Shown piece after piece: positions 909 through 32,410 of a stretch of DNA of 36,225 nt. Each line of letters begins with the position of its first letter. The stretch's first letter is position 1. Both the position numbers and the translations under genes were made by a program. This DNA comes from Candidatus Chisholmbacteria bacterium RIFCSPLOWO2_01_FULL_49_14 (GTDB lineage: Bacteria; Patescibacteriota; Microgenomatia; UBA1400; Chisholmbacteraceae). The stretch spans positions 17,040 through 53,264 of the forward strand of contig MHCL01000008.1 of the NCBI GenBank assembly GCA_001816915.1, written 5' to 3'. The notes beneath the pieces were generated by a model, which saw only the letters and a list, made by a program, of their open reading frames with translations, was not told the origin of the DNA and did not search any database.

Positions 909-1115
909 TGCCAAGTACATGTTGTTACTTCTTTACTCACCTAAAGAAGTAACCAAGAAAGGGAGCCCTGTGAAACCCTGCCAGTGTATCTTCGCTTCGC
1001 TCGGCGGGAACCCTCGGAAATTCACCTTCGACTCGTACTCTCGCTAAGGTTCAGTTTCCGTTTCCCACTCGAGCTCATCTCGATGCACATCGGCACAGGC
1101 TTCACAACGGGGAAA
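909..1115 (+). repeat. Copy A of a ~200-bp structured dispersed element
   Basis: Perfect 12-bp hairpin GTTACTTCTTTA-CTCACC-TAAAGAAGTAAC at 924-953, then CAAGAAAGGGAGCCC, CGGAAATTC and CAGTTTCCGTTTCCC blocks shared with 27236-27430 and 32190-32410. Confidence 0.8.
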
Positions 1116-1149
1116 GAGCTAAAAAAACAGAGATCGGGGGTAAATATGA

Positions 1150-1448
1150 AATATCGGATGACTAATGACTACTGACTAATAACTAATGTTTAATGTTCAA
1201 GGTTTAATGTTTAAATATTAAATCTTGATTTCTAATCCCTAATTCCAAATTCCTAAACCCTGGATTCTCATTCTTCCGCTTGACACGGCCGTTATACTTT
1301 GAAAAAGTCAATGGGTGAGAATAAGAAGCAAGAAATAATGAGAAGAAAATAATGAGTAATTTAAAATCCTAAACCCTAAGCCATCTATCCTTAAACGCTA
1401 AAAAAGCTAATAACCTAATAATCTAGTCAGCTAATACGCTAGAATCCT
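1150..1448. repeat. AT-rich intergenic micro-repeat 'word' tract upstream of topA
   Basis: Reiterated words: ACTAATGACTACTGACTAATAACTAATG, AATGTTTAATGTTCAAGGTTTAATG, CTAATTCCAAATTCCTAAACCC, GCTAATAACCTAATAATC. Confidence 0.6.
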
Positions 1449-3467
1449 ATGAAACTTGTCATCGTCGAAAGCCCGACCAAAGCCAGAACCCTCTCGAGAT
1501 ACTTGGGAAAGGGATATGAAATCGAAGCCAGCATGGGCCATGTCAGGGATTTGCCCCCCAGCAAGTTGGGCGTTGATGTCGAGCATGATTTTGCTCCGCT
1601 CTATGAGGTCGTTTCCGAGAAAGAAAAAATTGTCGATAAGCTTCGGTCTTTGGCAAAAAAAGCGGATGAGATTTACCTCTCCATGGACCCTGATAGGGAA
1701 GGGGAGGCAATTGCCTTTCATGTCAAACACCTGATCGGGAGAAACGGGAAGTTCAAACGGGTCGTTTTCCACCAGATCACCAAATCGGCAATTTTGGACG
1801 CGTTCACGCATCCGCGCGCGATCGATGATAATCTGGTTGACGCACAGCAAGCCCGCCGAGTTTTGGACAGACTGGTCGGATATACGCTGTCCCCGCTTCT
1901 CTGGAAAAAGGTGCGCCGGGGATTGTCAGCGGGCCGCGTCCAGTCGGTTGCCGTGCGTTTGATCGTTGAGCGCGAACGGGAAATCGAGGCCTTTAAGCCT
2001 GAAGAGTATTGGGTGATCGGCGCCGAGGTCACGAAAGCCGGTTCGCCTGAGGTATTCAGCATAGGCTTAGTGAAAATTGACGGCGAGACAGCAAAGGTGG
2101 CAGATAAAAAAACAGCCGATGCCATTGTCTCCGATCTCAAGGGCGCTGGGTATCTCGTCGTCCGGGTTGTGAGGAAGGAAGTCAAGAAAGGACCATATCC
2201 TCCGTTTACTACCTCCACCCTACAGCAGAGCGCTTCAAACGTCTTGGGTTTTACTGCCAAGCGGACCATGCGGGCGGCGCAAAACCTGTATGAGATGGGC
2301 CACATCACCTATCACCGAACCGATAGCGTTCACCTGGCCGCTGAGGCCAGAGCGTCAGCCCGATCTTACATCGAAAAAGCATATGGGAAGCAGTACCTCC
2401 CCGAGAATCCGAGGTTTTATAAGGTACGCAGCAAGTTAGCCCAGGAGGCGCATGAGGCGATTCGCCCGACCCGCGTTTCCGTCGATGCCGATTCGCTCAA
2501 GATCAAGGGGAAGGTGGTTTCTGATCTGCGGCGCCTGTATACGGTAATCCGAAAACGATTCCTTGCTTCTCAGATGAGCGATGCGGTTTATGATTCCACG
2601 ACCGTTGATGTGGAGGCGAAAGATAAAAATCCGAAATCCGAAGCACGAAATTCGAAAGTTTATCTTTTGCGGGCGAACGGAACGATCCTGAAGTTTGACG
2701 GATGGCGAACATTGTACAAACGCGACAGTGAAGATCGGGAGCTCCCGATACTTGAAGAAGGTGAGGGGCTGGATCTCAAGAATGTCCTGGCTGAACAAAA
2801 ATTTACCGAACCTTCGGCCAGATATACCGACGCAACGCTGGTCAAAGCGATGGAAGAGCGGGGAATCGGCAGGCCGTCAACCTACGCGCCGACCATCTCC
2901 ACCATTCTTGCCAGACAGTATGTTGAATATGATGAGAGAAAGTTCAAACCGACCACCGTCGGCATCGCGACCAATGACTTTTTGGTCGGTAACTTTGACC
3001 AGACGGTCGACTACGACTTCACGGCAGGCATGGAGGAGGATCTGGATAGAATCGCGCTCGGCAAAAGAAAATGGGTACCGGTTATTCGAGATTTTTGGGA
3101 GCCGTTTTTACGTAAAGCGGAGTTTGTCGAGAAAAACGCGAAGCGGGTGAAAGTGCCGACCGAGTCGACAGGGAACAAATGCCCCGTCTGCAAAGAAGGC
3201 GATGAAGTCATTCGGGTGGGCAGATTCGGAAAGTTCCTCTCCTGTTCAAGGTTTCCCGAATGTAAATATACCGCCAACTATGTCGAGAAACTCCAGGGGA
3301 TCAAATGCCCGGAGGATGGCGGTGATATCGTTATTAAAAAAACCCGCAAAGGGAAGACTTTTTTCGGTTGTTCCAATTACCCCAACTGCAAATGGGCGTC
3401 TTGGAGAGATCCGCGAGCATCCGGAAAAAAGTCAGTCGAGAAATCTGCACCACCAATCTCCGTCTAA
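1449..3467 (+). CDS. topA: DNA topoisomerase I (type IA) with C-terminal zinc fingers
   Basis: MKLVIVESPTKARTLSRYLG, DPDREGEAIAFH, YHRTDS active-site region, C-terminal CPVCKEGDEV and FFGCSNYPNCKW ribbons. Confidence 0.97.
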   Translation: MKLVIVESPTKARTLSRYLGKGYEIEASMGHVRDLPPSKLGVDVEHDFAPLYEVVSEKEKIVDKLRSLAKKADEIYLSMDPDREGEAIAFHVKHLIGRNGKFKRVVFHQITKSAILDAFTHPRAIDDNLVDAQQARRVLDRLVGYTLSPLLWKKVRRGLSAGRVQSVAVRLIVEREREIEAFKPEEYWVIGAEVTKAGSPEVFSIGLVKIDGETAKVADKKTADAIVSDLKGAGYLVVRVVRKEVKKGPYPPFTTSTLQQSASNVLGFTAKRTMRAAQNLYEMGHITYHRTDSVHLAAEARASARSYIEKAYGKQYLPENPRFYKVRSKLAQEAHEAIRPTRVSVDADSLKIKGKVVSDLRRLYTVIRKRFLASQMSDAVYDSTTVDVEAKDKNPKSEARNSKVYLLRANGTILKFDGWRTLYKRDSEDRELPILEEGEGLDLKNVLAEQKFTEPSARYTDATLVKAMEERGIGRPSTYAPTISTILARQYVEYDERKFKPTTVGIATNDFLVGNFDQTVDYDFTAGMEEDLDRIALGKRKWVPVIRDFWEPFLRKAEFVEKNAKRVKVPTESTGNKCPVCKEGDEVIRVGRFGKFLSCSRFPECKYTANYVEKLQGIKCPEDGGDIVIKKTRKGKTFFGCSNYPNCKWASWRDPRASGKKSVEKSAPPISV

Positions 3468-3555
3468 CTCGAGAAATATTTCGTTTTCTTCGGTACGAAT
3501 TGCGATGTCTTTGCCGATTGCATCAACCCTGTTGTGTTGCTAGCATAACTGCACG

Positions 3556-5748
3556 ATGGCGATGTGGCAGGTTCGAAAACGCTCGGGAGAGACTGAAGAT
3601 TTTATTCCCCAGAAAATCACGCAATCGATTGTCAGGGCGCAGTCGAATGTCGGCGTTACCGATGCAGATCAGGCTAAGCACGTTGGATCGTTGGTTTTCT
3701 CCGACCTGCAGAAACGTTTGGCGTCGGAGCGCCTGATCGGTACGGACCAGATCGGAGATGCCGTGGAGCGGATTCTCATTGACGAGGCGCTCTATGACAT
3801 TGCCCGCGCCTACATCATTGCCAGAGAACGCCAGCGCCAGAAAACCAGGGCGGAGAAGCAATTGGGAGTTACCGATGACATTGGTCTTCCCTACAACTCG
3901 ATCGTGGTCATCCGCAACAAGTATCTCAAAAAAGACGATCAGGGGAATCCCATTGAAACGCCCAAGCAAATGTTTGCGCGGGTGGCAAAGACGCTCTCTT
4001 CTACGGAGAAAAAGCCCAAAGGTTGGGAGAGCAGATTTTTTGAGGTGATGACCTCGCTTCGCCTCCTTCCCGCCGGACGGACGCTTGCCAACGCGGGGAC
4101 GACCAATAACCAGATGGCCAACTGCTTCGTGCTGCCGATGCCGGACTCGGTCGAGGGTATTTTTGAGGTCGTTAAAGAAAGCTCGATTCTCAAGAAGAAC
4201 GGGGGGGCGGTCGGCTTCAACTTCGGCAAAATCCGTCCCAAAGGCGACGCGGTTGCCGGTACCACTGGCGAAGCCTGCGGACCCGTCGCGATCATGAAGA
4301 TCGTCAATGACGCCTCCGATATTCTATTGCAAGCGGGGGGAAGGCGAAGCGGGAACATGGTTGTCCTACCCGTATCCCACCCGGATGTGTTTGAATTCAT
4401 CACCTGCAAGGAGGATGAGTCGCTTTTACCCCATATCAATTATTCACTGGGAGTGACCTCGAAGTTTATGAACGCGGTTGAGAGAGATCTTCCGTGGGAT
4501 CTTATTAATCCGCGAAACGGAGAGGTTGTGAGCACGGTGTCGGCCCGCTCCATCTTCGAGCTTGCCTGCTCCATGGCCTGGCGGAATGGCGATCCCGGAA
4601 TGATCTTTCTGGACCGCATCAACAGGGACAATCCGACGCCCCATGTCGGGGCGCTCGAGGCCGTGAACCTCTGCGGAGAACAACCGCTTTTGCCATGGGA
4701 AGCGTGCAATTTGGGATCTCTCAATTTGGCGGCCCACCTGGTCAGCAACGGGAAGCGCAGCATCAACTGGGAGAAGCTCGAAGACTCGGTTCGCTTAGGA
4801 ATACGGATGCTTGATGACGTGATCACCGGCTGCCGTTATCCTGTCAAGAAAGTCGAGGAGACGGTCAACGCCAACCGCAAGATCGGGTTGGGGATCATGG
4901 GCTGGGCGGATATGCTGGTTAGACTTGGGATTCCTTACAACAGTGAGGAAGCGCTGAAGCTGGCGCGGCGGATGATGAGGTTCATCCGGGAGAAAGCGGA
5001 GGATGAAAGTTCCAGGCTCGGGAAGGAGAAGGGGAGTTTCCCCAACTTCAAAGGTTCTCTCTGGGAGAAACGAGGCTACAAGCAGTTCCGCAACGCGACT
5101 TTACTGACCATCGCCCCGACGGGTTCGATTTCCATGGCGGCCGGCGTCTCCTACGGCATTGAGCCGCATTTTGCCCTGGCGTTTTATAAGGAAGCGATGG
5201 GGGGCATTCAGTTGCCGGAAGTCAATGCCGATCTTCTTGAGGCACTGCGGGACGCCGGGATTGAGGAGAATGGTCTTCTTGATGAGATTGCGCAAACCGG
5301 AACGATCCAGCAGATGAGCCAAATCCCGGAGCGGATCCGCAAGGTCTTCGTCACGGCGCACGATCTTACCCCTCAAGATCATGTCCTCACCCAAGCGGCA
5401 TTCCAGAAATACACCGATAACGCGGTTTCCAAGACCATCAATATGGCGCATGACGCGCGGGTCGAAGATATCCAGGATGCGTTCATGCTGGCCTGGAAAA
5501 CGGGATGCAAGGGGATCACCGCCTACCGGGACCTCAGCAGAAAAGTGCAAGTACTCAATGTCGGGAAACATTCAACAGCCACAAGTCACAAGTCACAAGC
5601 TACAAATAAGAGAGATAATAAGATTTCCCTACAAGCTAATAAGCTAACAAGCTCTTTTTCGGAGTGTCCGCAGTGCGGGGCGACCATGCAGTTTGTGGAA
5701 GGCTGCGCGACCTGCCCGTCATGCGCTTTTTCAGTCTGTTCGCTGTAA
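3556..5748 (+). CDS. nrdJ: Adenosylcobalamin-dependent (class II) ribonucleoside-diphosphate reductase with N-terminal ATP-cone
   Basis: N-terminal ATP-cone (VRKRSGETEDFIPQKITQSIVRA), NCFVLPMPDSVEGIF, NLGSLNLAAHL, ATLLTIAPTGSISMAAGVSYGIEPHFA, C-terminal CPQCG...GCATCPSCAFSVC. Confidence 0.95.
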   Translation: MAMWQVRKRSGETEDFIPQKITQSIVRAQSNVGVTDADQAKHVGSLVFSDLQKRLASERLIGTDQIGDAVERILIDEALYDIARAYIIARERQRQKTRAEKQLGVTDDIGLPYNSIVVIRNKYLKKDDQGNPIETPKQMFARVAKTLSSTEKKPKGWESRFFEVMTSLRLLPAGRTLANAGTTNNQMANCFVLPMPDSVEGIFEVVKESSILKKNGGAVGFNFGKIRPKGDAVAGTTGEACGPVAIMKIVNDASDILLQAGGRRSGNMVVLPVSHPDVFEFITCKEDESLLPHINYSLGVTSKFMNAVERDLPWDLINPRNGEVVSTVSARSIFELACSMAWRNGDPGMIFLDRINRDNPTPHVGALEAVNLCGEQPLLPWEACNLGSLNLAAHLVSNGKRSINWEKLEDSVRLGIRMLDDVITGCRYPVKKVEETVNANRKIGLGIMGWADMLVRLGIPYNSEEALKLARRMMRFIREKAEDESSRLGKEKGSFPNFKGSLWEKRGYKQFRNATLLTIAPTGSISMAAGVSYGIEPHFALAFYKEAMGGIQLPEVNADLLEALRDAGIEENGLLDEIAQTGTIQQMSQIPERIRKVFVTAHDLTPQDHVLTQAAFQKYTDNAVSKTINMAHDARVEDIQDAFMLAWKTGCKGITAYRDLSRKVQVLNVGKHSTATSHKSQATNKRDNKISLQANKLTSSFSECPQCGATMQFVEGCATCPSCAFSVCSL

Positions 5749-5852
5749 GCTCTGTAGGTTACGGATTATTGACAGCTCGAGCTGAAGTGGGTAGCAGACG
5801 TTGGCAGGCGGGCCTGCCCTTCCTGCGCATTCTCCATTTGTAGTTTATAGCT

Positions 5853-5889
5853 TCCTCAAGAAGTTCTTTTTGAAGGATAGATTTTTTTT
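5853..5889 (+). terminator. Possible intrinsic terminator after nrdJ
   Basis: Imperfect TCCTCAAGAA / TTTTTGAAGGA stem followed by ATTTTTTTTG. Confidence 0.45.
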
Positions 5890-5977
5890 GATTGGAATAA
5901 AAACTTATCACTTGGCTGTGTTTTTGATCTGATGTTGGGGTAGTTTGGAAAATTGACCGACGTGTTACTATTCTGTT

Positions 5978-6562
5978 ATGAGAGATTTTAAAGAAGGCAA
6001 AGTAGTCCTTCCTATTACGAAGGATCGATATGGATGGGTAATATCAGAACCAAGTTTCGATCTATCGATTATCCAGGATCATGAGATGAACTTGAGAGTT
6101 GCTCGGGAACGAGGCATAGATCCTCTGAGTTTTTCAGATATCAGCCAGCAACTGGGTGAGGGTTGGAATATTTGGGTGTTATTTGATACCGTTTTGAGAG
6201 CTTTTCGTGGCAATTACTGGCGAGTACTGGAAATTGATCGTAAGCAGGAAGAAGTGGAACTTCAATTCTGCGGAAGGTTTGGGATTTCCGACTACAAGGG
6301 TATTGAGCCGTTTCGGCTTTCAGTTCACGAGCCGTTTTTTACTGGTGTGACTGTACAAAAGTTTGTCGATGATAAGTCAGGTGAGCCGGTTTCGCTTACG
6401 GAGTTTCATGTGAGAAAAGGGGGAAGGGAACCAATGGATGTTCTCCAGGAACTTAAATGTTCGGAAGAGATTTACTGGTCTCAAGGAGCCGGTCCTTATT
6501 TTGGCCTCTTAAATTTCAAGTATATCGAACCTCAGAGAGGTAGAATTCCTTCTTCCGGATAG
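5978..6562 (+). CDS. Hypothetical protein (194 aa)
   Basis: Long ORF with no opposing recognised gene; MRDFKEGKVVLPITKDRYGW...; no family recognised. Confidence 0.65.
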   Translation: MRDFKEGKVVLPITKDRYGWVISEPSFDLSIIQDHEMNLRVARERGIDPLSFSDISQQLGEGWNIWVLFDTVLRAFRGNYWRVLEIDRKQEEVELQFCGRFGISDYKGIEPFRLSVHEPFFTGVTVQKFVDDKSGEPVSLTEFHVRKGGREPMDVLQELKCSEEIYWSQGAGPYFGLLNFKYIEPQRGRIPSSG

Positions 6563-6616
6563 AACATTTCAAATATTGCTTATCTAATAATAGAAATCAA
6601 ATTTCTACTCAAAGTT

Positions 6617-7072
6617 CTACTCCAAGTAGAGATTTACCACGTTGATTTCTTTGAAGAGTTTAAAATCTTGAATGTTTGCGGTCAGGATCTTCCGTATACC
6701 GTTGGAGAGCATGGTTGCGACCAATAAGAGATCAAACGTTTGTCTGGAATTTTTTAGGCGGTAGCGTTTTAAGAGTTTTGTGAAGAATGTCATGGTTTGG
6801 TCGTTGGGGTAGATTACCGTGAAGGAGGAAGAGGAGAGATATTTTTCTACCTCCAGAGACACCTGTTTTTGGGTGAGGGGACGCGTGATTCTCCCCGGAT
6901 TCGTGATCACTGCGACGAGCTCGAGAAGATTTTGGCTGGAGACCATGGCGTTGATCTTCCCAGAAAGTGCCTTGTCGTGATACACGGCGGCCTGCGCAAA
7001 GAATTTGCTGTCCTGATCCTGGTTATAGACGAGGACGTTGGTGTCAAAGAGGATCGGCTCAGACGTCTTCAT
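6617..7072 (-). CDS. PIN-domain (VapC-like) toxin
   Basis: ILFDTNVLVYNQD...SSQNLLELVAVI...TFDLLLVATMLSNGIRKILTANIQDF: acidic PIN-domain residues in the usual order; paired with the upstream gene. Confidence 0.85.
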   Translation of the reverse strand: MKTSEPILFDTNVLVYNQDQDSKFFAQAAVYHDKALSGKINAMVSSQNLLELVAVITNPGRITRPLTQKQVSLEVEKYLSSSSFTVIYPNDQTMTFFTKLLKRYRLKNSRQTFDLLLVATMLSNGIRKILTANIQDFKLFKEINVVNLYLE

Positions 7073-7295
7073 AGATCTCGGAGCGGCTCAGAGTTCCTTT
7101 GACTCCGCCGAGCTTGTGCCCGCCGATTCTTTCCTGACGGGTTTTCGGGAGTGGAGTGGAGCTCTTCAAATGCTTCTTCAGGCTTGCATGGATGATGTGC
7201 TTGAGGGTTTTTCCCTCCCGCAAGGCCGTCAGTTTCGCCTGGTAGAGAAGATTTGCGTCTAACTCGATGGTAGTTTTAACGGTCTGTTTAGCCAT
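7059..7295 (-). CDS. Cognate antitoxin (VapB/RHH-like)
   Basis: MAKQTVKTTIELDANLLYQAKLTALREGKTLKHIIHASLKKHL resembles a ribbon-helix-helix antitoxin; overlaps the PIN gene by 14 bp. Confidence 0.75.
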   Translation of the reverse strand: MAKQTVKTTIELDANLLYQAKLTALREGKTLKHIIHASLKKHLKSSTPLPKTRQERIGGHKLGGVKGTLSRSEIYEDV

Positions 7296-7328
7296 AAAAC
7301 CATATTACCGTAAAGCTGTAAGAATTGT

Positions 7329-7357
7329 CAAGTCTCTCCCGTCTTGGGAGAGACTTG
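7329..7357. repeat. Perfect 12-bp inverted repeat (hairpin)
   Basis: CAAGTCTCTCCC-gtctt-GGGAGAGACTTG between the TA operon start and the next + strand promoter. Confidence 0.7.
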
Positions 7358-7414
7358 CGGCCTCCTGCGTGTGTTAACGGCTTAAGGAATACTCTTCAAA
7401 GAATATCAACTATC

Positions 7415-7443
7415 TTGACAGGGCACGATTGAAGCGATATATT
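7415..7443 (+). promoter_or_regulatory. Sigma70-type promoter
   Basis: TTGACA-N17-TATATT upstream of the 7496 ORF. Confidence 0.65.
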
Positions 7444-7495
7444 GACCCTTTGTGTGTAAGAGTTACATACAGATTCAGCAAGAACTGAGGAATTT

Positions 7496-8053
7496 ATGAC
7501 AGAAGCAGACCCCAGAGATTATCGAGAAACGGATGAGGCAACAACGAATCCGATCTACGCGGAAGCGCTCAACCTACCGTATCTATTTGATGAGCATATG
7601 ATCCGTAAACCAATCGCGGTCGATGTTCCCCGGATGTTCGATCAGCTGGCTGAACAGGGGTTCAAGCTGGGAATAGAATCCCAGATCCGTTCGGCTTCGA
7701 TTGCCATCGAGGGTACATCTACGGTTAATCCGACGCCTAAAATTCTTTTCCATTTAGACGTTTACCCTTTGGAGGGTGAACTCGACAAGGCTCCTTCTGA
7801 AACTGTCGCTTACAGGAATGGCGGTGCCATCTCGACCGGCGAACGTCCAATTGGAAACTTTGTTGAGTATCTCGACCGAAAGTTGACTCTGACTCTTTTG
7901 TCTGACGGCAAAGCCGAAGTACGCTTCCTTCCTGGAAATTACACCTATCTTCCGTCACTGCAAAAATCCAGAGAGGCATTGAGCCGGGATGCAGATTTGC
8001 GCAGCACCGTCATCCGCACAATGCTTGCGTCAGTTGAAACGATTTCATCCTAG
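7496..8053 (+). CDS. Hypothetical protein (185 aa)
   Basis: ORF MTEADPRDYRETDEATTNPIYAEALNLPYLF... with a promoter upstream; no family recognised. Confidence 0.65.
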   Translation: MTEADPRDYRETDEATTNPIYAEALNLPYLFDEHMIRKPIAVDVPRMFDQLAEQGFKLGIESQIRSASIAIEGTSTVNPTPKILFHLDVYPLEGELDKAPSETVAYRNGGAISTGERPIGNFVEYLDRKLTLTLLSDGKAEVRFLPGNYTYLPSLQKSREALSRDADLRSTVIRTMLASVETISS

Positions 8054-8061
8054 AGTATAAT
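8034..8061 (+). promoter_or_regulatory. Sigma70-type promoter
   Basis: TTGAAA-N16-TATAAT overlapping the end of the preceding CDS, upstream of the 8112 ORF. Confidence 0.55.
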
Positions 8062-8111
8062 GCGAGTGGTTTCAGATAATATGAACAGGTATGAAAGATG
8101 AAAGGGGGAGT

Positions 8112-8372
8112 ATGCCAACAGATGGAGGAATGAGAGGTGGAAGATTGAGTGGAGCTGGTCAACGAAGGGGTATTGAAGGGGAACCTCCTGCGAATCATGG
8201 AGAAGAGGCTGAGATTCAACCAACCGACGCAGCGGATCCCAGTCAGCAAGGGGATTCAGTCGAAGAAACGGATTTGCCGGTAGATGCTTCTCTTGATTCT
8301 CAAACAGCATCAATTGCTAAACGTATTGATTTGGAAGCTTGGCTGCGAATGAGCAGACCTGATCTTTATTGA
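8112..8372 (+). CDS. Small hypothetical protein (start at internal ATG)
   Basis: AAGGGGGAG ribosome-binding site just before ATG 8112 (MPTDGGMRGGRLSGAGQRRG...). Confidence 0.5.
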   Translation: MPTDGGMRGGRLSGAGQRRGIEGEPPANHGEEAEIQPTDAADPSQQGDSVEETDLPVDASLDSQTASIAKRIDLEAWLRMSRPDLY

Positions 8373-8451
8373 AGAAGCGTTGCTCTTGGGTTACGCTTCA
8401 TTTGGATTTTCCTCTTGTTTTTTTTCACTGTCCTATGCTACCTTCAGTGCG

Positions 8452-10023: not shown

Positions 10024-10135
10024 GATAGCAGATAGAAATAAGAAAGACAGTTGATAGAGACATAGATAGAAAGTGGATAGACAGAAGTAAGATCAAATAG
10101 TGAATAGCAGATGGCAGATGGATGAGGTGAATACT
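10021..10135. repeat. Intergenic GATAGA/CAGATAG micro-repeat tract
   Basis: AGATAGCAGATAGAAATAAGAAAGACAGTTGATAGAGACATAGATAGAAAGTGGATAGACAG; same words as 34614-34767. Confidence 0.6.
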
Positions 10136-10137
10136 AT

Positions 10138-10166
10138 TTGACAGATGGGATGTTATAGGATACAAT
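10138..10166 (+). promoter_or_regulatory. Sigma70-type promoter
   Basis: TTGACA-N17-TACAAT. Confidence 0.65.
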
Positions 10167-10171
10167 ATCGC

Positions 10172-10200
10172 AATTCCTGGACTTTTAATCCGGGATTTTT
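10172..10200 (+). promoter_or_regulatory. 5'-leader hairpin with T-run (terminator-like) between promoter and CDS
   Basis: AATTCCTGGA-cttttaa-TCCGGGATTTTT begins at the predicted transcription start and ends 12 nt before ATG 10213. Confidence 0.5.
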
Positions 10201-10212
10201 AGAAGAGGATTT

Positions 10213-22750: not shown

Positions 22751-22877
22751 TATACCCCTTGTCCTCAAGAATGCGCACTTCATAGGCTTGTTCAGCCATA
22801 TTGCGTATCTGGAGTGAATGGGGTATTGCACACTACTTTTATTGCAAACCAGAGAATAGGGAGTTTACAATATCTTT

Positions 22878-23840: not shown

Positions 23841-24689
23841 TTGAGCATATCTTATCCATTTACCTTTGATATGGAGACTGGAGAATTACCCACAGCCGTT
23901 AACCCGCTTTTCTTTCAAGAGTTGGGAATCGAGCATCCCATCACCGTGGATATTGTTCGTCTTGGGGGACGGAGATTCTTAAGAGGATTAGAAAGAACGT
24001 CAAAGTATGGCGATCTTGACATCTCGTCTTTTCAGCTTGGCCACCAACAAGGCTTTATCCATCTGGATTCAGGAGACGGTTCGGAGATAAAAAAGAGGTA
24101 TTTGAAGTGGCAGCTTCTTAAAAATGACGGCTTTTCCGAACACACTTTTCAACTCTGTTTACCGGTTATCGCTCGGGATGAGCAGGGTGCTGATCGTTTC
24201 GGATTACTGACGGAGGATCTTGTATCTCCTCATTCCGATATTCTTGACTTAATTAGCTACAGAACCGGAGAGCGACCTGAGATTGTGGATGAGGCGGCCA
24301 GGTGGCTGAAGGGTTTCATGAGCAAACTTCATGACGGAGATCTTGAGCACAATATCGAGCAAATCGCGAATTCTTCCCTTCGAGAAGCGCTCAGACGACA
24401 CTATGATCGCACTGTGGTTAAAGGAGGGAAGGACAGCATGCCTAGGTGGGATCCATATATCGAGGCAGAAGCAGAGGCTCTCTTTTCGGACATGGAAACA
24501 AAGGGATGGGGCGCTATGGGAAGCAGCTTTTTCCTGCAAATTTTACGGACGCATCAAGACTGGTGGCCTTATCGACGGAAGATTCTCATTGGGGATTTAG
24601 GGATAGGGCTCAACAAAGCTCCATCGCAAAGAGTTGAGAAGGGGCACATCTTCGATCTGATACAGTATTCCTATTTTGCCGATTCCTGA
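23841..24689 (+). CDS. Hypothetical protein (start uncertain; ATG at 23871)
   Basis: Long ORF following folD; no family recognised. Confidence 0.6.
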   Translation: MSISYPFTFDMETGELPTAVNPLFFQELGIEHPITVDIVRLGGRRFLRGLERTSKYGDLDISSFQLGHQQGFIHLDSGDGSEIKKRYLKWQLLKNDGFSEHTFQLCLPVIARDEQGADRFGLLTEDLVSPHSDILDLISYRTGERPEIVDEAARWLKGFMSKLHDGDLEHNIEQIANSSLREALRRHYDRTVVKGGKDSMPRWDPYIEAEAEALFSDMETKGWGAMGSSFFLQILRTHQDWWPYRRKILIGDLGIGLNKAPSQRVEKGHIFDLIQYSYFADS

Positions 24690-24782
24690 TTACATTCCCC
24701 AAAGCTCTGCTTCAAAGAGGACATCAGCCATTTTGACTTCAAGAAGATGTGATAGAATCCTCTCCTGCTGAATGAAAGTACT

Positions 24783-25679
24783 ATGAGAGGAAAAATTGAG
24801 GCACATCCCGGAGAACTCTCCCGAAACTCTGCTGAGACAATCATCGCGAGAGCGGGGGAACTGTATCCCGGGGTATTCGGAGAACGAGAACTTCGGATGT
24901 ATGGGGATTTATTCGTGGAGGGAAGTGTCCTCACCCCCGAACGATTGGCGTTTATCCAGCCGGAGTACGGGCGGTTTTTCCCGAGATCGGATATACACCC
25001 TCTCATCTATATCAAAGAGGGCATAGATTTTCCACATACTCAAACAGCACATACAGTCGATGCTTTTCTTGGTCCGTCTGCGGGAGGAAAAGACAGCATT
25101 CTTGATATTGTCAAGGAAAATCATCCGTATGTTCGGATCCGGACAACGACGACCAGACCTCCCAGAAGAGACGCATCGCAGGATGAGATTTTGGAAGCCA
25201 GATATGAATTTGTAACAGCAGAGGAGTTTGTTGAACTTGAAAGGGGCGGAGGATTTTCAGAAGTTCTCTCACCGGATATGCAAGGAAAGTACCGGTATGG
25301 GACATCGATTCAAGCTGTAGAGCGAGCGCTTAACCGAGATCTGCATCTTGTTATCTGGAGGGGGGATATATTGGGATTACCGTATTTCCGTTCTTGGATG
25401 CAAAACTATCATTCGGAAATTGATTTTCTCTCGGTTTTTGTCTTACCAAAGATGCCGATCGCGGAATTATGGCAACGGATGACAAGGAAGCGTGGAGTTG
25501 AGCAGGCGACTGCCTGGAGATTCCCGAAAGGTCTTCTGGAAATCCACAGCGCGGCTCAAATTGTCGACTGTCTGGTGCTCAATCCTTCTGATCCATCAGG
25601 AGAACCTCGAGAAGCAGCCGCTGCAACGCTCGCACTTTTTCGGCGTCAAAGCAATGGGCTCGTATTAGGTAGCAGTTGA
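24783..25679 (+). CDS. Guanylate-kinase-like protein with N-terminal extension
   Basis: AFLGPSAGGKDSILDIV, TTTRPPRRDASQDE, YEFVTAEEFVELE; ~90 aa N-terminal region precedes the kinase domain. Confidence 0.7.
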   Translation: MRGKIEAHPGELSRNSAETIIARAGELYPGVFGERELRMYGDLFVEGSVLTPERLAFIQPEYGRFFPRSDIHPLIYIKEGIDFPHTQTAHTVDAFLGPSAGGKDSILDIVKENHPYVRIRTTTTRPPRRDASQDEILEARYEFVTAEEFVELERGGGFSEVLSPDMQGKYRYGTSIQAVERALNRDLHLVIWRGDILGLPYFRSWMQNYHSEIDFLSVFVLPKMPIAELWQRMTRKRGVEQATAWRFPKGLLEIHSAAQIVDCLVLNPSDPSGEPREAAAATLALFRRQSNGLVLGSS

Positions 25680-25704
25680 TTTTATTGCGATAAATAGTTA
25701 CAAT
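25676..25704 (+). promoter_or_regulatory. Sigma70-type promoter for rpsB
   Basis: TTGATT-N17-TACAAT. Confidence 0.6.
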
Positions 25705-25785
25705 CCCAGCATCACACAGCTTTCGACTTAAAAACTCCTGAGTTTGAACTTCAACCGAGTCGAACTTGGTGAGTCGGGAGCGAGG

Positions 25786-25816
25786 AAGCCCTCCTTCGCG
25801 TAAAGCTACGGAGGGC
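25786..25816 (+). promoter_or_regulatory. rpsB leader hairpin, sister of 19104-19134
   Basis: AAGCCCTCCTTCGCGTAAAGCTACGGAGGGC; 26/31 identical to the element in the PRTase leader. Confidence 0.65.
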
Positions 25817-25833
25817 GAAAAGGAGTTTGTTTT

Positions 25834-26562
25834 ATGAGTACCTACGAAGTCTCGTTGACTGATTTGCTGGAAGCCGGATGTCATTTCGGACATCAGGTAC
25901 GCCGCTGGAACCCGAGGATGAAGCCGTACATCTATTCGTCCAAAGACAGCGTGCATATTTTTGATCTGGCAAAAACTGCACAAATGCTTCAGGAGGCTTG
26001 CGAATATGTCAAAAGCATCGCGATGGAGGGGAAGATTCTCCTGATTGTGGGCACCAAACGCCAGGCGAAGGCCATCGTTCGGGAAGAGGCTCAAAAAGCG
26101 GGAGCTCCGTTTGTGAGCGAGCGTTGGCTCGGAGGCACCATAACCAATTGGGATCAGATAAAAAAGAGTATTGATTTACTTCTTGATATGCGTGATAAAA
26201 AAGAGAAAGGTGAGTATAAAAAATACACTAAGAAGGAAAACGTTCTCATCGACAGAGAGATTGAACGATTGGAACGTTTTTTCGGCGGATTGGCGCAGCT
26301 TAAAAAAGCACCCGATGCGATATTTGTTGTCGATACTCATCGGGAGGCGGTGGCTGTTGCCGAGGCGAATAACCGAGATGTCCGGGTTGTCGGAATCGTT
26401 GACACCAATGCTGATCCGAGACTGGTTGATCACTTGATTCCGGCAAATGATGATGCTGTACGGTCCATCAAACTCATTACTTCAAAAATTGCCGAGGCGT
26501 ATGCAGAAGGAAAGATGCTCTTTGAGAAGAAGAAAGGGAAAGAGAGGGAGAATAGCAAATAG
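25834..26562 (+). CDS. rpsB: 30S ribosomal protein S2
   Basis: LLEAGCHFGHQVRRWNPRMKPYIY, VSERWLGGTITNW, DAIFVVDTHREAVAVAEANN. Confidence 0.98.
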   Translation: MSTYEVSLTDLLEAGCHFGHQVRRWNPRMKPYIYSSKDSVHIFDLAKTAQMLQEACEYVKSIAMEGKILLIVGTKRQAKAIVREEAQKAGAPFVSERWLGGTITNWDQIKKSIDLLLDMRDKKEKGEYKKYTKKENVLIDREIERLERFFGGLAQLKKAPDAIFVVDTHREAVAVAEANNRDVRVVGIVDTNADPRLVDHLIPANDDAVRSIKLITSKIAEAYAEGKMLFEKKKGKERENSK

Positions 26563-26679
26563 CAGATGGATTTATAATAAGTTAAAAGTTCAAAATGAAA
26601 AGTGTAAAGTTACAGTTTAAAGTTAAAAATTAACAGACAAAAATCAGAGAATAAAGAGAATAGAGAAAAGTAGAGAAAT
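26563..26679. repeat. Intergenic micro-repeat tract between rpsB and tsf
   Basis: AAGTTAAAAGTTCAAAATGAAAAGTGTAAAGTTACAGTTTAAAGTTAAAA and AGAGAATAAAGAGAATAGAG words. Confidence 0.55.
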
Positions 26680-27144
26680 ATGGGAAAAATAACGACAGCG
26701 GCGATAAAGAAACTTCGGGAAAAAACGGGAGCCGGAGTGATGGAAGTAAAGAAGGCTCTTGAGGAAAGCGCGGGAGATGAATCCAAGGCTACGAAACTCA
26801 TCCAGAAGCGTGGACTTGTAAAAGCCCAGAAGCGGGCCGACAGGGAGGCCACTCAGGGAGTCATCGCTTCCTATGTCCACCAAGGAGGAAGGGTTGCGGT
26901 TTTAGTCGAACTCGCCTGTGAGACTGATTTTGTGGCGCGTACGGAGGAATTCCAGAAGCTCGCCAATGAACTTGCAATGCAGGTTGCCTCGATGGAACCC
27001 AAAAAGGTTGCAGACCTACTCAAGGAGGAGTACATTCGCGATCCGGGCAAGACCGTTGAGCAGTTGATCGGGGAGACTGTGGGAAAGACCGGGGAGAAGA
27101 TTGAAGTCAAACGCTTCGCGCGCTTCAGTTTGGGAGAGGAATAG
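26680..27144 (+). CDS. tsf: Elongation factor Ts (short form)
   Basis: AAIKKLREKTGAGVMEVKKALEES, GRVAVLVELACETDFVARTEEF. Confidence 0.96.
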   Translation: MGKITTAAIKKLREKTGAGVMEVKKALEESAGDESKATKLIQKRGLVKAQKRADREATQGVIASYVHQGGRVAVLVELACETDFVARTEEFQKLANELAMQVASMEPKKVADLLKEEYIRDPGKTVEQLIGETVGKTGEKIEVKRFARFSLGEE

Positions 27145-27235
27145 GGTTTCTCCGTAAGCTTTCAATTTTTCCGTTTCAAAAGACATAAAGTCCTTTGTTT
27201 ATGCAAATGTTTATGCAAACGGAGGATACTTTCTT

Positions 27236-27430
27236 GCTTGACTCCAAGCACGGGTTGTTCATTCTTTTGCTTGTCCAAAAGAATGAACCAAGAAAAGGAC
27301 ACCCTCTGAAATCCTGTCGGAACTGCTGCGATTCGGTTGGCGGTTCCCTCGAAAATTCCCTCCGGTCAGTTTCCGTTTCCCGCTCAGCCTCATCTTGCAG
27401 TTCAGCGACGAGGCTTTCAAAAGGGAGATT
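27236..27430 (+). repeat. Copy B of the ~200-bp structured element
   Basis: Perfect 13-bp hairpin GTTCATTCTTTTG-CTTGTC-CAAAAGAATGAAC at 27257-27288 plus shared downstream blocks. Confidence 0.8.
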
Positions 27431-27531
27431 TGATTAACAGCTTCAGGAGCTCTCTGAGTGTTCTTGATTGACTGCGTTCAAAGGGGGCATTTCGCGTAGT
27501 AGCCTATAGCCTGTGATATAATTCTCGATAT

Positions 27532-28251
27532 ATGTCCCTTGAGGATGCATTGCGGAAAGCCGAAGAACAAATGGCGCAGCAGGAAAGGGAAGAGAAAGTA
27601 AAAAAAGAGGCTGCAAAAGAGGCTGCAATTGAAGCATCTGTTCAAATGCAGAAGCGGAAAGCCGAGCAGTTGAATGATGAGGCAAGGAGTCTTTTGCGTC
27701 CGATGGTGCAAACAATCCAGCGAACCGGTATTGTGCAGATTCTGGAGGAATTGGTAAAGACAAAAAAACTTACTAAAGAGGTTAGAGAGCCGGAGTCAGC
27801 TTCGCCTCAGGTCATATTTTTTGTCACACATTGGGCTAAGCCGGGGACGGATAAGAGAGTAGATAATGTGAAATTCGTCGGTCTTGAGCTTGATGGAGGG
27901 TTTGGGCAATATATTCGCCAATATGCCGAAAATGGTGAAGAAGATGAGGTTGTCAAGCGCCTAAGCAAACTTCGTGCTTGTAAGAGAATGTGGCTAGAGT
28001 ACCCTCCTCGGGTAGGTCTAAAATGGGGTTATTACACATATTACTCACCTTATACATGGAATGATGAAGACAGTGACTGGAATGAAATCTTGTTTCTCTT
28101 TGACAAGGTTGATCATGGGTTTGCCCTGTCGGCAAGGGCAGGTCGTGGTAATACTTTTCCGGAAGTAGATCAGCTTCCTGAGAGGGATTGGAGTACTCAG
28201 ACCATTGAACAGTTGGTTGCAAAAACCTATTTGGCGGAAGTACAGTCGTAG
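27532..28251 (+). CDS. Hypothetical protein (239 aa) with charged N-terminal coiled coil
   Basis: MSLEDALRKAEEQMAQQEREEKVKKEAAKEAAIEASVQMQKRKAEQ...; extended -10 TGATATAAT ends 9 nt before ATG. Confidence 0.65.
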   Translation: MSLEDALRKAEEQMAQQEREEKVKKEAAKEAAIEASVQMQKRKAEQLNDEARSLLRPMVQTIQRTGIVQILEELVKTKKLTKEVREPESASPQVIFFVTHWAKPGTDKRVDNVKFVGLELDGGFGQYIRQYAENGEEDEVVKRLSKLRACKRMWLEYPPRVGLKWGYYTYYSPYTWNDEDSDWNEILFLFDKVDHGFALSARAGRGNTFPEVDQLPERDWSTQTIEQLVAKTYLAEVQS

Positions 28252-28496
28252 TAACGGAGATTGATTTGCGGTATCTGCAATCTTGCCTTTTCTTCTCTCG
28301 GCTGAACACAGTTTCTGATGCTTTTTTCTAACTTCAGTATTGAGTACAGGTTCGCTTGCTCATTCGATTTCTTTCAGCGAGTTCTAGTGAGTTTACTCTT
28401 GAGAAATACTTTATAACTGCGGTCCGGGCGGATGGCATTTATAGAGTATTTTGAACTGTTGATGATCTTTATGTGGAGGTGTGTAGGTATTTGTTT

Positions 28497-28524
28497 TTGC
28501 ACGGCGACGGGTTTCGTTTATAAT
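28497..28524 (+). promoter_or_regulatory. Promoter very close to frr ATG
   Basis: TTGCAC-N16-TATAAT, 11 nt before ATG. Confidence 0.55.
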
Positions 28525-28535
28525 GTCCTTACGTT

Positions 28536-29093
28536 ATGGAACATGAAATTTTAATTCAAACCAGAACTGACATGGAGGCGGTCCTGAGCGTGGTCGTTGA
28601 GGATCTGGCGACCGTTAAAACCGGAAGGGCGAAACCTTCACTCATTGAGCGGGTGATGATAGAGGTCTATAACATGAGAATGCCGCTTATTGAACTGGCA
28701 ACTATTTCCGCACCCGATCCTCAACTACTAGTCGTTCAGCCTTGGGATGAGTCGGTTATTCAGGATATCGCGAAGGGCATCTCGCAGAGTCAAATCGGCT
28801 TAAATCCGGTGGTTGACGGCTCGATCATCCGTCTGCAGATTCCTCCCTTAACCGAAGAGCGCAGGGAAGAGTATGTTACGCTCGTGCGCCAAAAGATCGA
28901 GAGCGGGAGGGTCATGCTGCGGCAGGCGAGACAGGACTCGAAAAAGCGGATTGAGGGGTTGAAGGGAGAGCCGGGAGTTTCCGAGGATGATATTTTTCGT
29001 CTGTTAACGGAGCTTGAGAAGGTTACTGATGAGCATACAGAAAAATTGGAAGCTCAAGGGCAGGACAAAGAAGCGGAATTGAGGACGATTTAG
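28536..29093 (+). CDS. frr: Ribosome recycling factor
   Basis: DLATVKTGRAKPSLIERVMIEVYN, LLVVQPWDESVIQDIAKGI, IPPLTEERREEYV. Confidence 0.96.
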   Translation: MEHEILIQTRTDMEAVLSVVVEDLATVKTGRAKPSLIERVMIEVYNMRMPLIELATISAPDPQLLVVQPWDESVIQDIAKGISQSQIGLNPVVDGSIIRLQIPPLTEERREEYVTLVRQKIESGRVMLRQARQDSKKRIEGLKGEPGVSEDDIFRLLTELEKVTDEHTEKLEAQGQDKEAELRTI

Positions 29094-29235
29094 AAGATGG
29101 CATATCAATGTTTAATATTTGAGGTTTAATGTCCAATGATTTAAGATTTAAGATTTAAGACAAGAAAATAGAGAACAGAGAGCAACGATTTAAGATAGAA
29201 GCTTCGGGAATGAGGCAGACAAGCGGAGACCAGAA

Positions 29236-30432
29236 ATGACTTTTTTGATTTTTCTTGGGGTTTTGTCGCTGCTGGTTTTTGTGCATGAAGCCGGACATTT
29301 TTTAGTGGCAAAAAAGGCTGGCATCCGTGTTGAGGAATTCGGTTTCGGCATTCCACCCCGGATCATCGGGAAAAAAATCGGAGAGACGATCTACTCTTTG
29401 AACCTCCTGCCCATCGGAGGATTTGTCCGGCTTCTCGGTGAAGACCGGGAAGAGGTCAGTGAGAGTGACAGGCTGGGTTTGACGCGAGAAGAGTTGAAGA
29501 AACGGGCCTTTTTCACGCAACCAAAACGGATCCGGATAGCCGTGGTCGTTTCCGGTGTGATCATGAACTTCCTCTTAGGTGTGGTCTTATTCAGCGGATT
29601 GTATACCGCGATTGGGATCCCGACCGCGGCGGATGGCGTGCAAATTGTTGAGCTTTTTAAAGATTCGCCGGCCGCTTCGGCATTTGAGCTCGGAGATGAG
29701 GTTGTCTCCGTTGAAGGGACCGCGGTGCAAACACCGCAGGAATTCCAGGATTTAGTTCAAGGAAAATCGGGACAGGAGGTTGGATTTGAGGTGCTTCGAG
29801 GCGGGGCGCTTACCATTATCACGGCATTGGCGCGCAGCGAGCCACCGGTGCACTACGGAGCACCAACCTTACAGTTGTCGGATGATAAGAGGGGAATCGC
29901 TTGCGTACGGCCGGCAAATCAGGAAGGGGCGCTGGGAGTCGTCATCTCGTCAAAAACGGAAATGATGCATTATCCCATCTGGCAGATGCCGTTTCGTGCC
30001 GCAGGTTTTGGTCTGAAAGTTGCCTACGGGTGGGGATCCAACATCATCCGTGGTCTTGGGGGTCTTTTGACTCAGCTTGTCTGTGGGTCCGTCCCGCAGG
30101 ACATCGGCGGTCCGGTTGAGATTGCATTCCTCATTTCCGAAGTTTCCAAAACCGGGTTTGCTCCGCTGATCAACCTGGTGGCGGTGCTTTCCATCAACCT
30201 CGCGATCGTCAATCTCCTGCCAATTCCTGCCTTAGACGGAGGGAGGCTCCTCTTTATCATGATGGAGGCAGTGATTGGGAGAACGATTTCGCCAAGAGCC
30301 GAGCGTTTGACCCATGCGGTCGGTATGGCGCTTCTGTTGGCACTGATGTTTGCCATTACCGTTCAGGATATTCTGCGCCGCTCCGGCGCGGAGAGTTTGG
30401 GCGCGTTGGTTGAGCGTGTTGTCCGGATGTGA
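29236..30432 (+). CDS. rseP: RseP-type site-2 zinc metalloprotease with PDZ domain
   Basis: VFVHEAGHFLVAKKAGIRVEEFGFGIPPR (HExxH), PDZ-like region, NLLPIPALDGGRLLF. Confidence 0.94.
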   Translation: MTFLIFLGVLSLLVFVHEAGHFLVAKKAGIRVEEFGFGIPPRIIGKKIGETIYSLNLLPIGGFVRLLGEDREEVSESDRLGLTREELKKRAFFTQPKRIRIAVVVSGVIMNFLLGVVLFSGLYTAIGIPTAADGVQIVELFKDSPAASAFELGDEVVSVEGTAVQTPQEFQDLVQGKSGQEVGFEVLRGGALTIITALARSEPPVHYGAPTLQLSDDKRGIACVRPANQEGALGVVISSKTEMMHYPIWQMPFRAAGFGLKVAYGWGSNIIRGLGGLLTQLVCGSVPQDIGGPVEIAFLISEVSKTGFAPLINLVAVLSINLAIVNLLPIPALDGGRLLFIMMEAVIGRTISPRAERLTHAVGMALLLALMFAITVQDILRRSGAESLGALVERVVRM

Positions 30433-30856
30433 GATTTTGCGTGCCTTTCATCCGTCCCCGATGGTGGGTGATTCGTGAAGTTGACAATCTCGGGACGGGT
30501 AATTTTCCCCTCGCGCCTCGGGTAAATGGTCGAACGATGGAGGATTCACCGACTTTGAGATCGACGGCATTTTTTATCATGAGGCCGTTCTTGAGGAAGA
30601 TCACGCGTGGCAGTACTACTACCGGTTTTTCCTGAGCGTTGAGGATTACGATGGGCTCTTTATCGCTTTCGGTGAGATGGGCTCTGATCGGAGTCTCCGT
30701 TTCAGCAAAGAGAACGACGTCTTCGTCGACCGCAATTCCTTGTTCAGATACGTCATCCAATTCCTGCCTTTTTCCTTGCTCGTTTGATCTTCCTCTTCCC
30801 AGTTTCCGTATTTCCAAATAGTGGGAGATTTCTGCACCCGCTTCCGTATTACTCAT
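30356..30856 (-). CDS. Hypothetical protein overlapping the rseP 3' end
   Basis: Minus-strand ORF from ATG 30856 (MSNTEAGAEISHYLEIRKLGRGRSNEQGKRQELDDVSEQGIAVDEDVVLFAETETPIRAHLTESDKEPIVILNAQEKPVVVLPRVIFL...) preceded by AAAGG; the rseP-proS gap is otherwise unexplained. Confidence 0.5.
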   Translation of the reverse strand: MSNTEAGAEISHYLEIRKLGRGRSNEQGKRQELDDVSEQGIAVDEDVVLFAETETPIRAHLTESDKEPIVILNAQEKPVVVLPRVIFLKNGLMIKNAVDLKVGESSIVRPFTRGARGKLPVPRLSTSRITHHRGRMKGTQNLTSGQHAQPTRPNSPRRSGAEYPER

Positions 30857-30901
30857 GATTACCTTTGTTGGCCATGATAGCATTTTTAAGAAAGCTTTGT
30901 T

Positions 30902-32158
30902 ATGATTTCTGAGATGTTGCAATCGACACTTTTCCCAAAAACGAAGAAGGAAGCGCCCAAGGATGCTCAGAGCATCAATCATCGGCTGTTGGTGAGGGGA
31001 GGGTTAATTGATCAATTGATGGCAGGTAGCTGGACGCTCTTGCCGCTCGGATGGAGGGTTGTCTCCAAGATCAATCAGATTATACGGGAAGAAATGAACG
31101 CAATCGGGGCGCAGGAACTGCTTATGCCGCTTTTGCATCCCAAAGCGATTTGGAATGAAACCGGTCGTTGGGATGTGGCGCATGAGATTATGTATAAGCT
31201 CAAGGATGTTCGGGAGCGGGAATTCGTACTTTCCTTCACTCATGAGGAGATCGTGATGGATCTTCTGCGCAAGCACATCTCGAGCTATCAGGATCTCCCG
31301 ATCGCTGTCTACCACTTTTCCACCAAATTCCGCAATGAACTGCGAGCGCGTTCAGGCATTCTGCGTGGCAGAGAGTTTCTCATGAAAGATTTATACAGCG
31401 CCCATACCGACGAGAAAGATTTGCAGCACTACTATGAAATGGTGAAGGAGGCATACGGGAAAATCTTCACGCGATTGGGATTCACCACTAAGATCATTGA
31501 AGCCGCAGGCGGTGTGTTTACCCAGCAACATACCCATGAGTTTCAAGTGATTACGCCGGGCGGAGAGGATACCATCTATTATTGCGATCGATGCACATGG
31601 GGTCAAAATAAAGAGATTTATTCCGGAAAAGCGGGGGACCGCTGTCCACAATGCAAAACGGGAAGCGTCATTTCCGCAAAGGCGATTGAAGTGGGGAATA
31701 TCTTTCCGCTGGGAACCCGTTACGCGGAGAAGATGGGCGTCAACTTCACGGATTCGAGAGGGATAAAGCATCCGGTGTGGTTCGGAAGCTACGGCATCGG
31801 TCCGACACGAGTATTGGGGGCGTTGGTTGAGGTTTCCCACGATGATCGAGGCATTATTTGGTACCCGCAAGTTGCGCCGTTTGAGGTCCACTTGGTGGAA
31901 CTGAAGACGAAAGACGCAGGACTAAAGACGGAAGAAATTTACGGGCGACTTCAAGATGACGGGATTGATGTGTTGTTGGATGACCGGGATGTCTCGGCCG
32001 GGGAGAAGTTTGCGGACGCGGACCTCATCGGGATTCCGGTCCGCCTGGTTGTTTCGCAAAAAACAGGAGATCGTGTTGAGTGGAAGCGAAGAGATTCAGA
32101 GAAGGCTGAGCTTCTTTCTTACGCGGATGTCATTGACAGACTGAAGAAATTAACGTAG
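30902..32158 (+). CDS. proS: Prolyl-tRNA synthetase, short form with zinc-ribbon-like insert
   Basis: LLVRGGLIDQLMAGSWTLLPLGWRV, FRNELRARSGILRGREFLMKDLYS, YYCDRC...CPQC, IEVGNIFPLGTRYAEKMG, YGIGPTRVLGA. Confidence 0.95.
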   Translation: MISEMLQSTLFPKTKKEAPKDAQSINHRLLVRGGLIDQLMAGSWTLLPLGWRVVSKINQIIREEMNAIGAQELLMPLLHPKAIWNETGRWDVAHEIMYKLKDVREREFVLSFTHEEIVMDLLRKHISSYQDLPIAVYHFSTKFRNELRARSGILRGREFLMKDLYSAHTDEKDLQHYYEMVKEAYGKIFTRLGFTTKIIEAAGGVFTQQHTHEFQVITPGGEDTIYYCDRCTWGQNKEIYSGKAGDRCPQCKTGSVISAKAIEVGNIFPLGTRYAEKMGVNFTDSRGIKHPVWFGSYGIGPTRVLGALVEVSHDDRGIIWYPQVAPFEVHLVELKTKDAGLKTEEIYGRLQDDGIDVLLDDRDVSAGEKFADADLIGIPVRLVVSQKTGDRVEWKRRDSEKAELLSYADVIDRLKKLT

Positions 32159-32189
32159 AAGAGATATTTGATTTATCATTATTTGATTT

Positions 32190-32410
32190 GCTTGTGCCAA
32201 GCAGTCATTGACCATTTCTTTGCTCATCCAAAGAAATGGTCGAAAGAAAAGATGCCCCATGCTGCGTCGGTGGCTGGACCATCGACCCCACTTGCAGTAG
32301 GGTCTGCGCTTTTCTTTTCGGGAAGCCTTCCGAAATTCCCTCCGGTCAGTTTCGGCTTTCCTCTCAAGAAAAGCGGATCCAGCCGCACCGACTCCGCCAA
32401 GGGTATTTCA
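32190..32410 (+). repeat. Copy C of the ~200-bp structured element
   Basis: Perfect 13-bp hairpin GACCATTTCTTTG-CTCATC-CAAAGAAATGGTC at 32210-32241, TTCCCTCCGGTCAGTTTC block identical to copy B. Confidence 0.8.

Follow-up and report, generated by a model that had tools for sequence, protein, structure and literature searches.

Three copies of a structured element in the window

The window analyzed here is a 36,225-nucleotide stretch of DNA from Candidatus Chisholmbacteria bacterium RIFCSPLOWO2_01_FULL_49_14 (contig MHCL01000008.1, positions 17,040 to 53,264), and it carries three diverged copies of a structured element, namely, copy A at 907 to 1112, copy B at 27236 to 27428, and copy C at 32190 to 32404. 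All three are on the + strand, where an initial annotation had placed them. At the core of the element is a module in which a hairpin loop is complementary to the end of a purine-rich linker and the linker itself repeats the purine arm of the stem in reverse order. We consider it probable that this module folds as a clamped intrastrand DNA triplex and that the element carrying it is a mobile DNA repeat.

Copies B and C begin with a small 5' hairpin of the form GCTTG-nnn-CAAGC, which had been overlooked (GCTTG-ACTC-CAAGC at 27236 to 27249 and GCTTG-TGC-CAAGC at 32190 to 32202, respectively) and which is decayed in copy A. Hairpin 1 follows, with a perfect stem in each copy: GTTACTTCTTTA-CTCACC-TAAAGAAGTAAC in A (924 to 953), GTTCATTCTTTTG-CTTGTC-CAAAAGAATGAAC in B (27257 to 27288), and TTGACCATTTCTTTG-CTCATC-CAAAGAAATGGTCGA in C (32208 to 32243). 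Next comes the putative third strand, which is CAAGAAA in A (954 to 960; mirroring the stem arm AAAGAAG at 6 of 7 positions), CAAGAAAA in B (27289 to 27296; mirroring AAAAGAA at 7 of 7), and GAAAGAAA in C (32242 to 32249; mirroring AAAGAAA, with a first two bases that may lengthen the stem instead). The clamp segment is GGGAG in A (961 to 965), pairing with the loop end CACCT at 4 of 5 positions, one of them a G-T pair; GGACA in B (27297 to 27301), pairing with the loop TGTCC at 5 of 5; and AGATG in C (32250 to 32254), pairing with CATC(C) at 4 of 5 (CATC/GATG). The hairpin with its 6-nt loop had been recognized initially. It is only part of the fold, and its loop, rather than being free, is paired with the linker.

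Each copy ends in a long second hairpin, at 966 to 1112 in A (imperfect, with the tip CGGAAATTC...CAGTTTCCG), 27302 to 27428 in B, and 32255 to 32404 in C. In copy C and at locus L017 this hairpin belongs to a different sequence subfamily (CTGCGTCGGTGGCTGGACC / GGATCCAGCCGCACCGACTCCGC in copy C) and its overall shape is unchanged. A TTCGACTCGCTCAGG-type sub-repeat sits at the tip of hairpin 2, as though inserted in the loop, at 1026 to 1050 in the window and in L009, L014, L015, and L017. In L010 and L011 and after copies B (27470 to 27488) and C (32416 to 32447), single 5' modules are followed by 3' ends from other subfamilies, stacked one behind another (GTTCAAAGGGG, CGACTCCGCCAAGGG, and TTCAnnACGGG), which suggests nested insertion.

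A dispersed family with a shared fold

The host genome (1.21 Mb in 29 contigs) contains at least 13 dispersed copies of the element. A BLAST search with copy A against this genome returned further copies with E values down to 4e-62, and the copy B query returned an overlapping set. We read and folded 13 of these copies (minimum-energy folds), and most folds share a common shape, in which a perfect hairpin of 12 to 15 bp with a 6-nt loop leads through a purine-rich linker into the long hairpin 2. The latter is imperfect, about 130 nt in length, and bounded by CCC..TGAA and TTCAnAAnGGG; the CGAAATTCCC...CAGTTTCCG block described initially is present and is in fact its tip. In an alignment of 11 copies, 21 of the 47 consensus pairs show at least one double-sided compensatory change, which bears out the covariation of the stem and, with it, the proposal that structure rather than sequence is conserved.

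The initial annotation had named two outcomes that would speak against a structured family, that is, the existence of only three copies with no covariation and descent from one coding gene. The copies and covariation described above dispose of the former. As to the latter, remnants of a coding gene were ruled out when a spurious open reading frame (ORF) at 32168 to 32488 and the other frames gave no credible Pfam match; the statement that similar hairpins appear as spurious ORFs was correct, since translations such as VTFFASPKKVTKERR were found. Chance similarity was likewise rejected, given the BLAST E values for copies A and B and a reversed-pattern control with no match in 14 genomes. No Rfam family scored above its gathering threshold for the element, and a known RNA family was therefore set aside.

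In L012 (host genome) and L264 (Methylobacter), the hairpin loop is the exact site of an insert of other palindromic sequence, about 40 to 47 nt long, and L012 has such an insert between stem and linker as well; these insertions suggest that the module fold is itself an insertion hot spot. What remains of older hairpins, a 5' half comprising arm and loop, is found immediately upstream of an intact module in L024 and, in a related genus, in L290, L298, and L300.

Covariation of the loop-linker clamp

Complementarity between the hairpin loop and the linker end, which gives the module a pseudoknot-like connectivity, had not been noticed in the initial annotation. The clamp recurs with different letters in the host genome (CAGGC/GCCTG in L014 and L015, CACTC/GAGTG in L018, and CTCAC/GTGAG in L012, a perfect clamp in this sibling of copy A, whose own is imperfect) and in other genomes (TCGCC/GGCGA, TAGCC/GGCTA, TGGCC/GGCCA, TCCGCC/GGCGGA, CTTGAC/GTCAAG, and TCTTGTC/GACAAGA). 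Among 60 distinct modules, all five clamp pairs show double-sided changes. In the 60-sequence alignment, whose register was set by the mirror match and not by complementarity, so that a few out-of-register modules are scored as broken, 90.7% of stem and clamp cells are paired, compared with 71.7% after shuffling; the covariation score is 0.558, against 0.215 for shuffled alignments (0 of 500 shuffles as high) and at most 0.167 for slid ones. Without use of the mirror register, loop-linker complementarity of at least 5 nt was found in 38 of 63 modules (shuffled mean, 7.6; maximum, 16; 1,000 shuffles).

A mirror linker consistent with a DNA triplex

The purine run between stem and clamp, also overlooked in the initial annotation, is the purine arm of the stem in reverse. 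With the register taken from the clamp alone, the mirror identity is 5.90 of 7 positions, compared with 4.58 for shuffled linkers (maximum, 5.24 in 5,000), and the same linker letters read in direct order give 4.59 of 7, which is the chance value. A G in the arm predicts a G in the linker at positions 1 to 4 (Fisher P values of 0.003, 0.003, 0.003, and 6e-6), and arm and linker vary jointly, as in the pairs AAAAGAGA/AAAAGAGA, AAGAAAAA/AAGAAAAA, and GGAAAAAA/GGAAAAAA.

In class II purine-motif intrastrand triplexes, the third strand runs antiparallel to the purine strand and forms A·A-T and G·G-C triplets (Holder et al. 2015, PMC4666352). The module has the strand order of potential triplexes of this kind (PIT elements), i.e., pyrimidine tract, loop, purine tract, loop, and purine third strand from 5' to 3', and its third strand mirrors that purine tract in antiparallel order (A·A-T, G·G-C) at the 5.90 of 7 positions given above. 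The comparison of copies establishes a layout of pyrimidine arm, 6-nt loop, purine arm, turn, purine third strand, and loop-complementary clamp, with Watson-Crick covariation in the stem and clamp and with a putative third strand that varies with the purine arm as its mirror (A over A, G over G). Such matching changes between copies suggest that selection may be maintaining the fold.

The initial annotation had left open whether the conserved structure was an RNA or a cruciform. Purine-motif triplexes form in DNA and cannot form in RNA (PMC4666352); because of this and of the mirror linker, single-stranded DNA is, on the sequence evidence, likelier than RNA to be the acting molecule.

Distribution across bacteria

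The element is dispersed well beyond the window, as had been supposed. The hairpin pattern was found in at least 119 stretches in named genomes of beta- and gammaproteobacteria, Bacteroidota, Oscillospiraceae and other Clostridia, Spirochaetes, and Nitrospirae, most with a similar downstream layout, and the fusobacterium Ilyobacter also carries the module, which is thus present in at least six named phyla (Pseudomonadota, Bacteroidota, Bacillota, Spirochaetota, Nitrospirota, and Fusobacteriota). In the 14 genomes searched, the exact pattern occurs 1 to 66 times per genome and its reversed control 0 times. Because stem lengths vary, a covariance model built from one alignment (A2) contained no pairs, and pattern searches, which undercount, were used instead.

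Searching the genome and its relatives, as had been proposed, yielded further copies in both. Among 380 genomes of the host's own phylum, several copies were present only in the host genome and in one of its family, and a further carrier was found among relatives. A pattern search of E. coli gave no match, and 2.9 million viral contigs gave two, on which basis a phage origin was ruled out. Being rare in its own phylum, nearly absent from viral contigs, and without a match in E. coli, the module has a patchy spread like that of a mobile repeat. In L222 and L223 (Acinetobacter phage BS46 and Prevotella Lak phages), an exact 22-nt match of the AAAGAAAGTAACCAAAGAAAAG type lies in A-rich DNA with no hairpin and is probably due to chance.

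Full-length elements and mobility

The single-module form, with one module and one long hairpin, includes the three window copies. The full-length form, which the initial annotation had missed along with its mobility, consists of a long inverted repeat across which two modules, one on each strand, point toward each other. Modules paired within 1.5 kb in the fetched loci were convergent in 28 cases and divergent in none, corresponding, since loci overlap, to about 23 distinct sites.

The Caballeronia unit is a palindrome of about 600 bp with terminal repeats TCGCCGGATCCCG... and one module per arm. In three Caballeronia records, about 12 bp separate a racemase gene from a hydrolase gene, and the element splits this pair in C. 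zhejiangensis; a second junction, between FAD-oxidoreductase and RidA genes, holds the element in Caballeronia sp. NK8 and is empty in C. zhejiangensis and Paraburkholderia. These empty-site comparisons reveal the insertion, with no clear target duplication. In Methylobacter tundripaludum, the module lies inside a miniature inverted-repeat transposable element (MITE). This MITE measures 319 bp, or 366 bp where a loop insertion is present; it ends in CTGATGTTACGCA terminal repeats and is flanked by perfect 7-bp duplications (TCTGTAA and TTATTGA for 319-bp copies and TTATTAA for the 366-bp copy). An insertion sequence of 1,105 bp, with ends identical to those of the MITE, encodes an IS701-family transposase (NF049921; 377 bits, cutoff 250). 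Mobility is demonstrated in Methylobacter and Caballeronia rather than in the window.

At an orthologous site in the host lineage, upstream of a putative rpsF gene, the host genome has a type-A element and a related genus has one of type C. Behind the type-A copy stands a 3' end resembling type C, which fits nested insertion. An all-against-all comparison of ORFs from the 8-kb loci returned mainly repeat translations and no recurring protein recognizable as a mobilizer.

Genomic context

The common orientation of the copies holds within the window and does not extend to a rule elsewhere: at 90 module sites in other genomes, assessed with crude ORF calls, the 5' neighboring gene points toward the module in 46 and away from it in 44. 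Many copies are located closely behind a gene in the sense direction, among them window copies B and C and a copy at Pasteurella dapF. Intrinsic terminators were found in 11 of 158 upstream flanks (1.4 expected) and in none on the opposite strand. Copies in Chitinophaga skermanii (L048, L065, L122, L177, L188, and L231) lie in sense orientation just downstream of Rho-independent terminators, and copies in Silvimonas (L050, L055, L166, and L180) have a hexamer-phased tail of variable length (CAACCC, CAAAGG, or CAACAT) behind the 3' end. In the window, low-complexity ORFs (SISYPFLISSYSLLIAICYPLSAI...) on the - strand at 34509 to 35057 resemble a simple-repeat region.

Proposed mechanism and alternative explanations

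We propose that the element is probably a non-autonomous palindromic mobile DNA repeat, similar to MITEs or bacterial interspersed mosaic elements (BIMEs), with a clamped intrastrand DNA triplex as its conserved module. Where the DNA becomes single stranded (on the lagging strand or in the wake of a helicase), the hairpin would form from the pyrimidine arm and the first purine arm, the third strand would return through the major groove, antiparallel to the purine arm (A·A-T, G·G-C), and pairing of loop with clamp would then lock the triplex. The fold would be the selected feature, most simply in that polymerase stalling or recognition of the fold leads to the repeat being copied, mobilized, or retained between genes; triplex elements of this class block DNA polymerase in vitro (PMC4666352). 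Movement would rely on a local enzyme, such as the IS701-family transposase in Methylobacter. A broader version, to which we give only tentative credence, is that the clamped triplex is a general signal of mobile DNA across phyla, which replication or recombination machinery would recognize as a single-stranded fold whatever its sequence, so that unrelated elements gain or keep the module.

Several observations weigh against the triplex repeat. Some copies, copy A among them, have an imperfect clamp or mirror, and the statistics count related modules as independent once near-duplicates are removed. No terminal repeats or target duplications were recognized around the window copies, and no mobilizing enzyme was identified for the host genome or lineage. 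In Methylobacter, a 104-bp derivative without the module has its own target duplication; the module is therefore dispensable for movement of the MITE and is its cargo rather than a transposase signal. In vivo footprinting of a G/C-rich relative failed to detect a triplex (PMC4666352), and an A-rich third strand would be expected to be weaker than a G-rich one.

The covariation of stem and clamp would be expected equally of an RNA, in which an H-type pseudoknot and a long hairpin in 3' untranslated or intercistronic RNA would stabilize transcripts or end transcription, and the many copies closely behind genes in sense (window copies B and C, Pasteurella dapF, and the Chitinophaga copies after terminators) fit such a role. 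However, a minor-groove RNA linker does not need the G/A mirror match, purine-motif triplexes are reported not to arise in RNA (PMC4666352), both strands of full-length elements carry a module, and Rfam has no match; given the mirror and the unbiased gene orientation (46 sense and 44 antisense, by the crude calls above), we regard an RNA role as unlikely. The element could also be an ordinary MITE or fossil repeat in which the fold is a passive by-product, perfected by template switching between hairpin arms and not by selection. Such correction of arms would account for the perfect stems, and the near-perfect inverted arms in Chitinophaga (71 of 71) and the other palindromic sequence in hairpin loops agree with it. 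From its known mechanisms, however, template switching would yield inverted or direct repeats and not mirror repeats, leaving the mirror linker unaccounted for, and the module recurs within elements whose terminal repeats are unrelated, which makes a passive origin distinctly improbable.

Repetitive extragenic palindromic (REP) elements mobilized by RAYT (Y1-type) transposases are also short structured intergenic repeats, at times in inverted pairs, and the host genome has four Y1_Tnp matches. Nevertheless, no Y1 match was found in copy-rich genomes of Chitinophaga (49 exact matches), Oscillospiraceae (66), Silvimonas (18), or Nitrospirae (8), which rules out RAYT mobilization as a general cause, and the hairpin foot lacks the GTAG/GGAG tetranucleotide that marks REP sequences. 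We consider a REP origin very improbable.

Relation to known elements

The nearest known relatives of the proposed triplex are BoxC, PIT elements, and TM-ECO, which are G/C-rich class II purine-motif intrastrand triplex repeats (PMC4666352). The module resembles them in its order of 5' pyrimidine, purine, and reverse-Hoogsteen purine 3' strands, in its mirror third strand, and in its dispersed intergenic copies, palindromic (inverted) occurrences, and patchy spread. The TM-ECO motif, reported in proteobacteria, is CCCTCNCCC-N3-6-GGGNGAGGG-N3-GGGNGAGGG with a loop of 3 to 6 nt (PMC4666352). In contrast, the present module is A-rich (CTTTCTTT / AAAGAAAG), has a covarying clamp of 5 to 6 bp between loop and tail, forms part of a larger element that also includes a 5' hairpin and a long second hairpin, and is present in several phyla. 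The window copies do not match the TM-ECO/BoxC consensus (CCCTCNCCC..GGGNGAGGG..GGGNGAGGG), and the half-motif CCCTCNCCC..GGGNGAGGG is absent from the window. No loop clamp is described for BoxC, PIT, or TM-ECO in PMC4666352, where the word "pseudoknot" does not occur. Two TM-ECO triplexes in E. coli K-12 (L270, 1100 and 8245) have loop-to-tail complementarity of 2 to 3 nt (CTTTG/GCAA and TGT/CA), possibly a short clamp in the known family.

Other likenesses are partial. The Methylobacter IS701-family MITE holds the module between CTGATGTTACGCA terminal repeats with 7-bp target duplications, but these repeats were seen in that lineage only and are lacking from the window copies. REP, BIME, and REPIN repeats with RAYT share the small structured intergenic form, with some inverted pairs, but differ in sequence and architecture, and RAYT is not consistently present. 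An H-type RNA pseudoknot with an A-rich loop 3 has the same connectivity of stem, loop paired to the 3' tail, and A-rich connecting strand; here, however, the connecting strand mirrors the G and A order of the stem, which suits a DNA purine-motif triplex. We found no report of the element sequence in a bacterial context in the papers searched, and individual A-rich motifs may be listed in the ITxF database of PMC4666352. Intrastrand triplex repeats are already known as a kind, and it is the sequence, clamp, element architecture, and phylum range that differ here. The comparative evidence for a three-stranded fold as the putative conserved feature is unusually direct.

Significance

The role of DNA triplexes in living cells is a long-standing question. 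Previous evidence comprised abundance, in vitro folding, and genome instability, with the best-known motif having failed in vivo footprinting (PMC4666352). Covariation of a third strand with its stem, in a register set independently by the clamp, is a different type of evidence and points to the three-stranded fold as what may be conserved. The clamp also allows a clean mutational test, because third strand, clamp, and stem can be broken and restored separately. As the family is widespread and a source of spurious ORFs, naming it would aid genome annotation. If the clamped triplex does prove to be a general signal of mobile DNA, it would provide what appears, from a literature check that was not exhaustive, to be the first comparative evidence of selection maintaining a DNA triplex in genomes.

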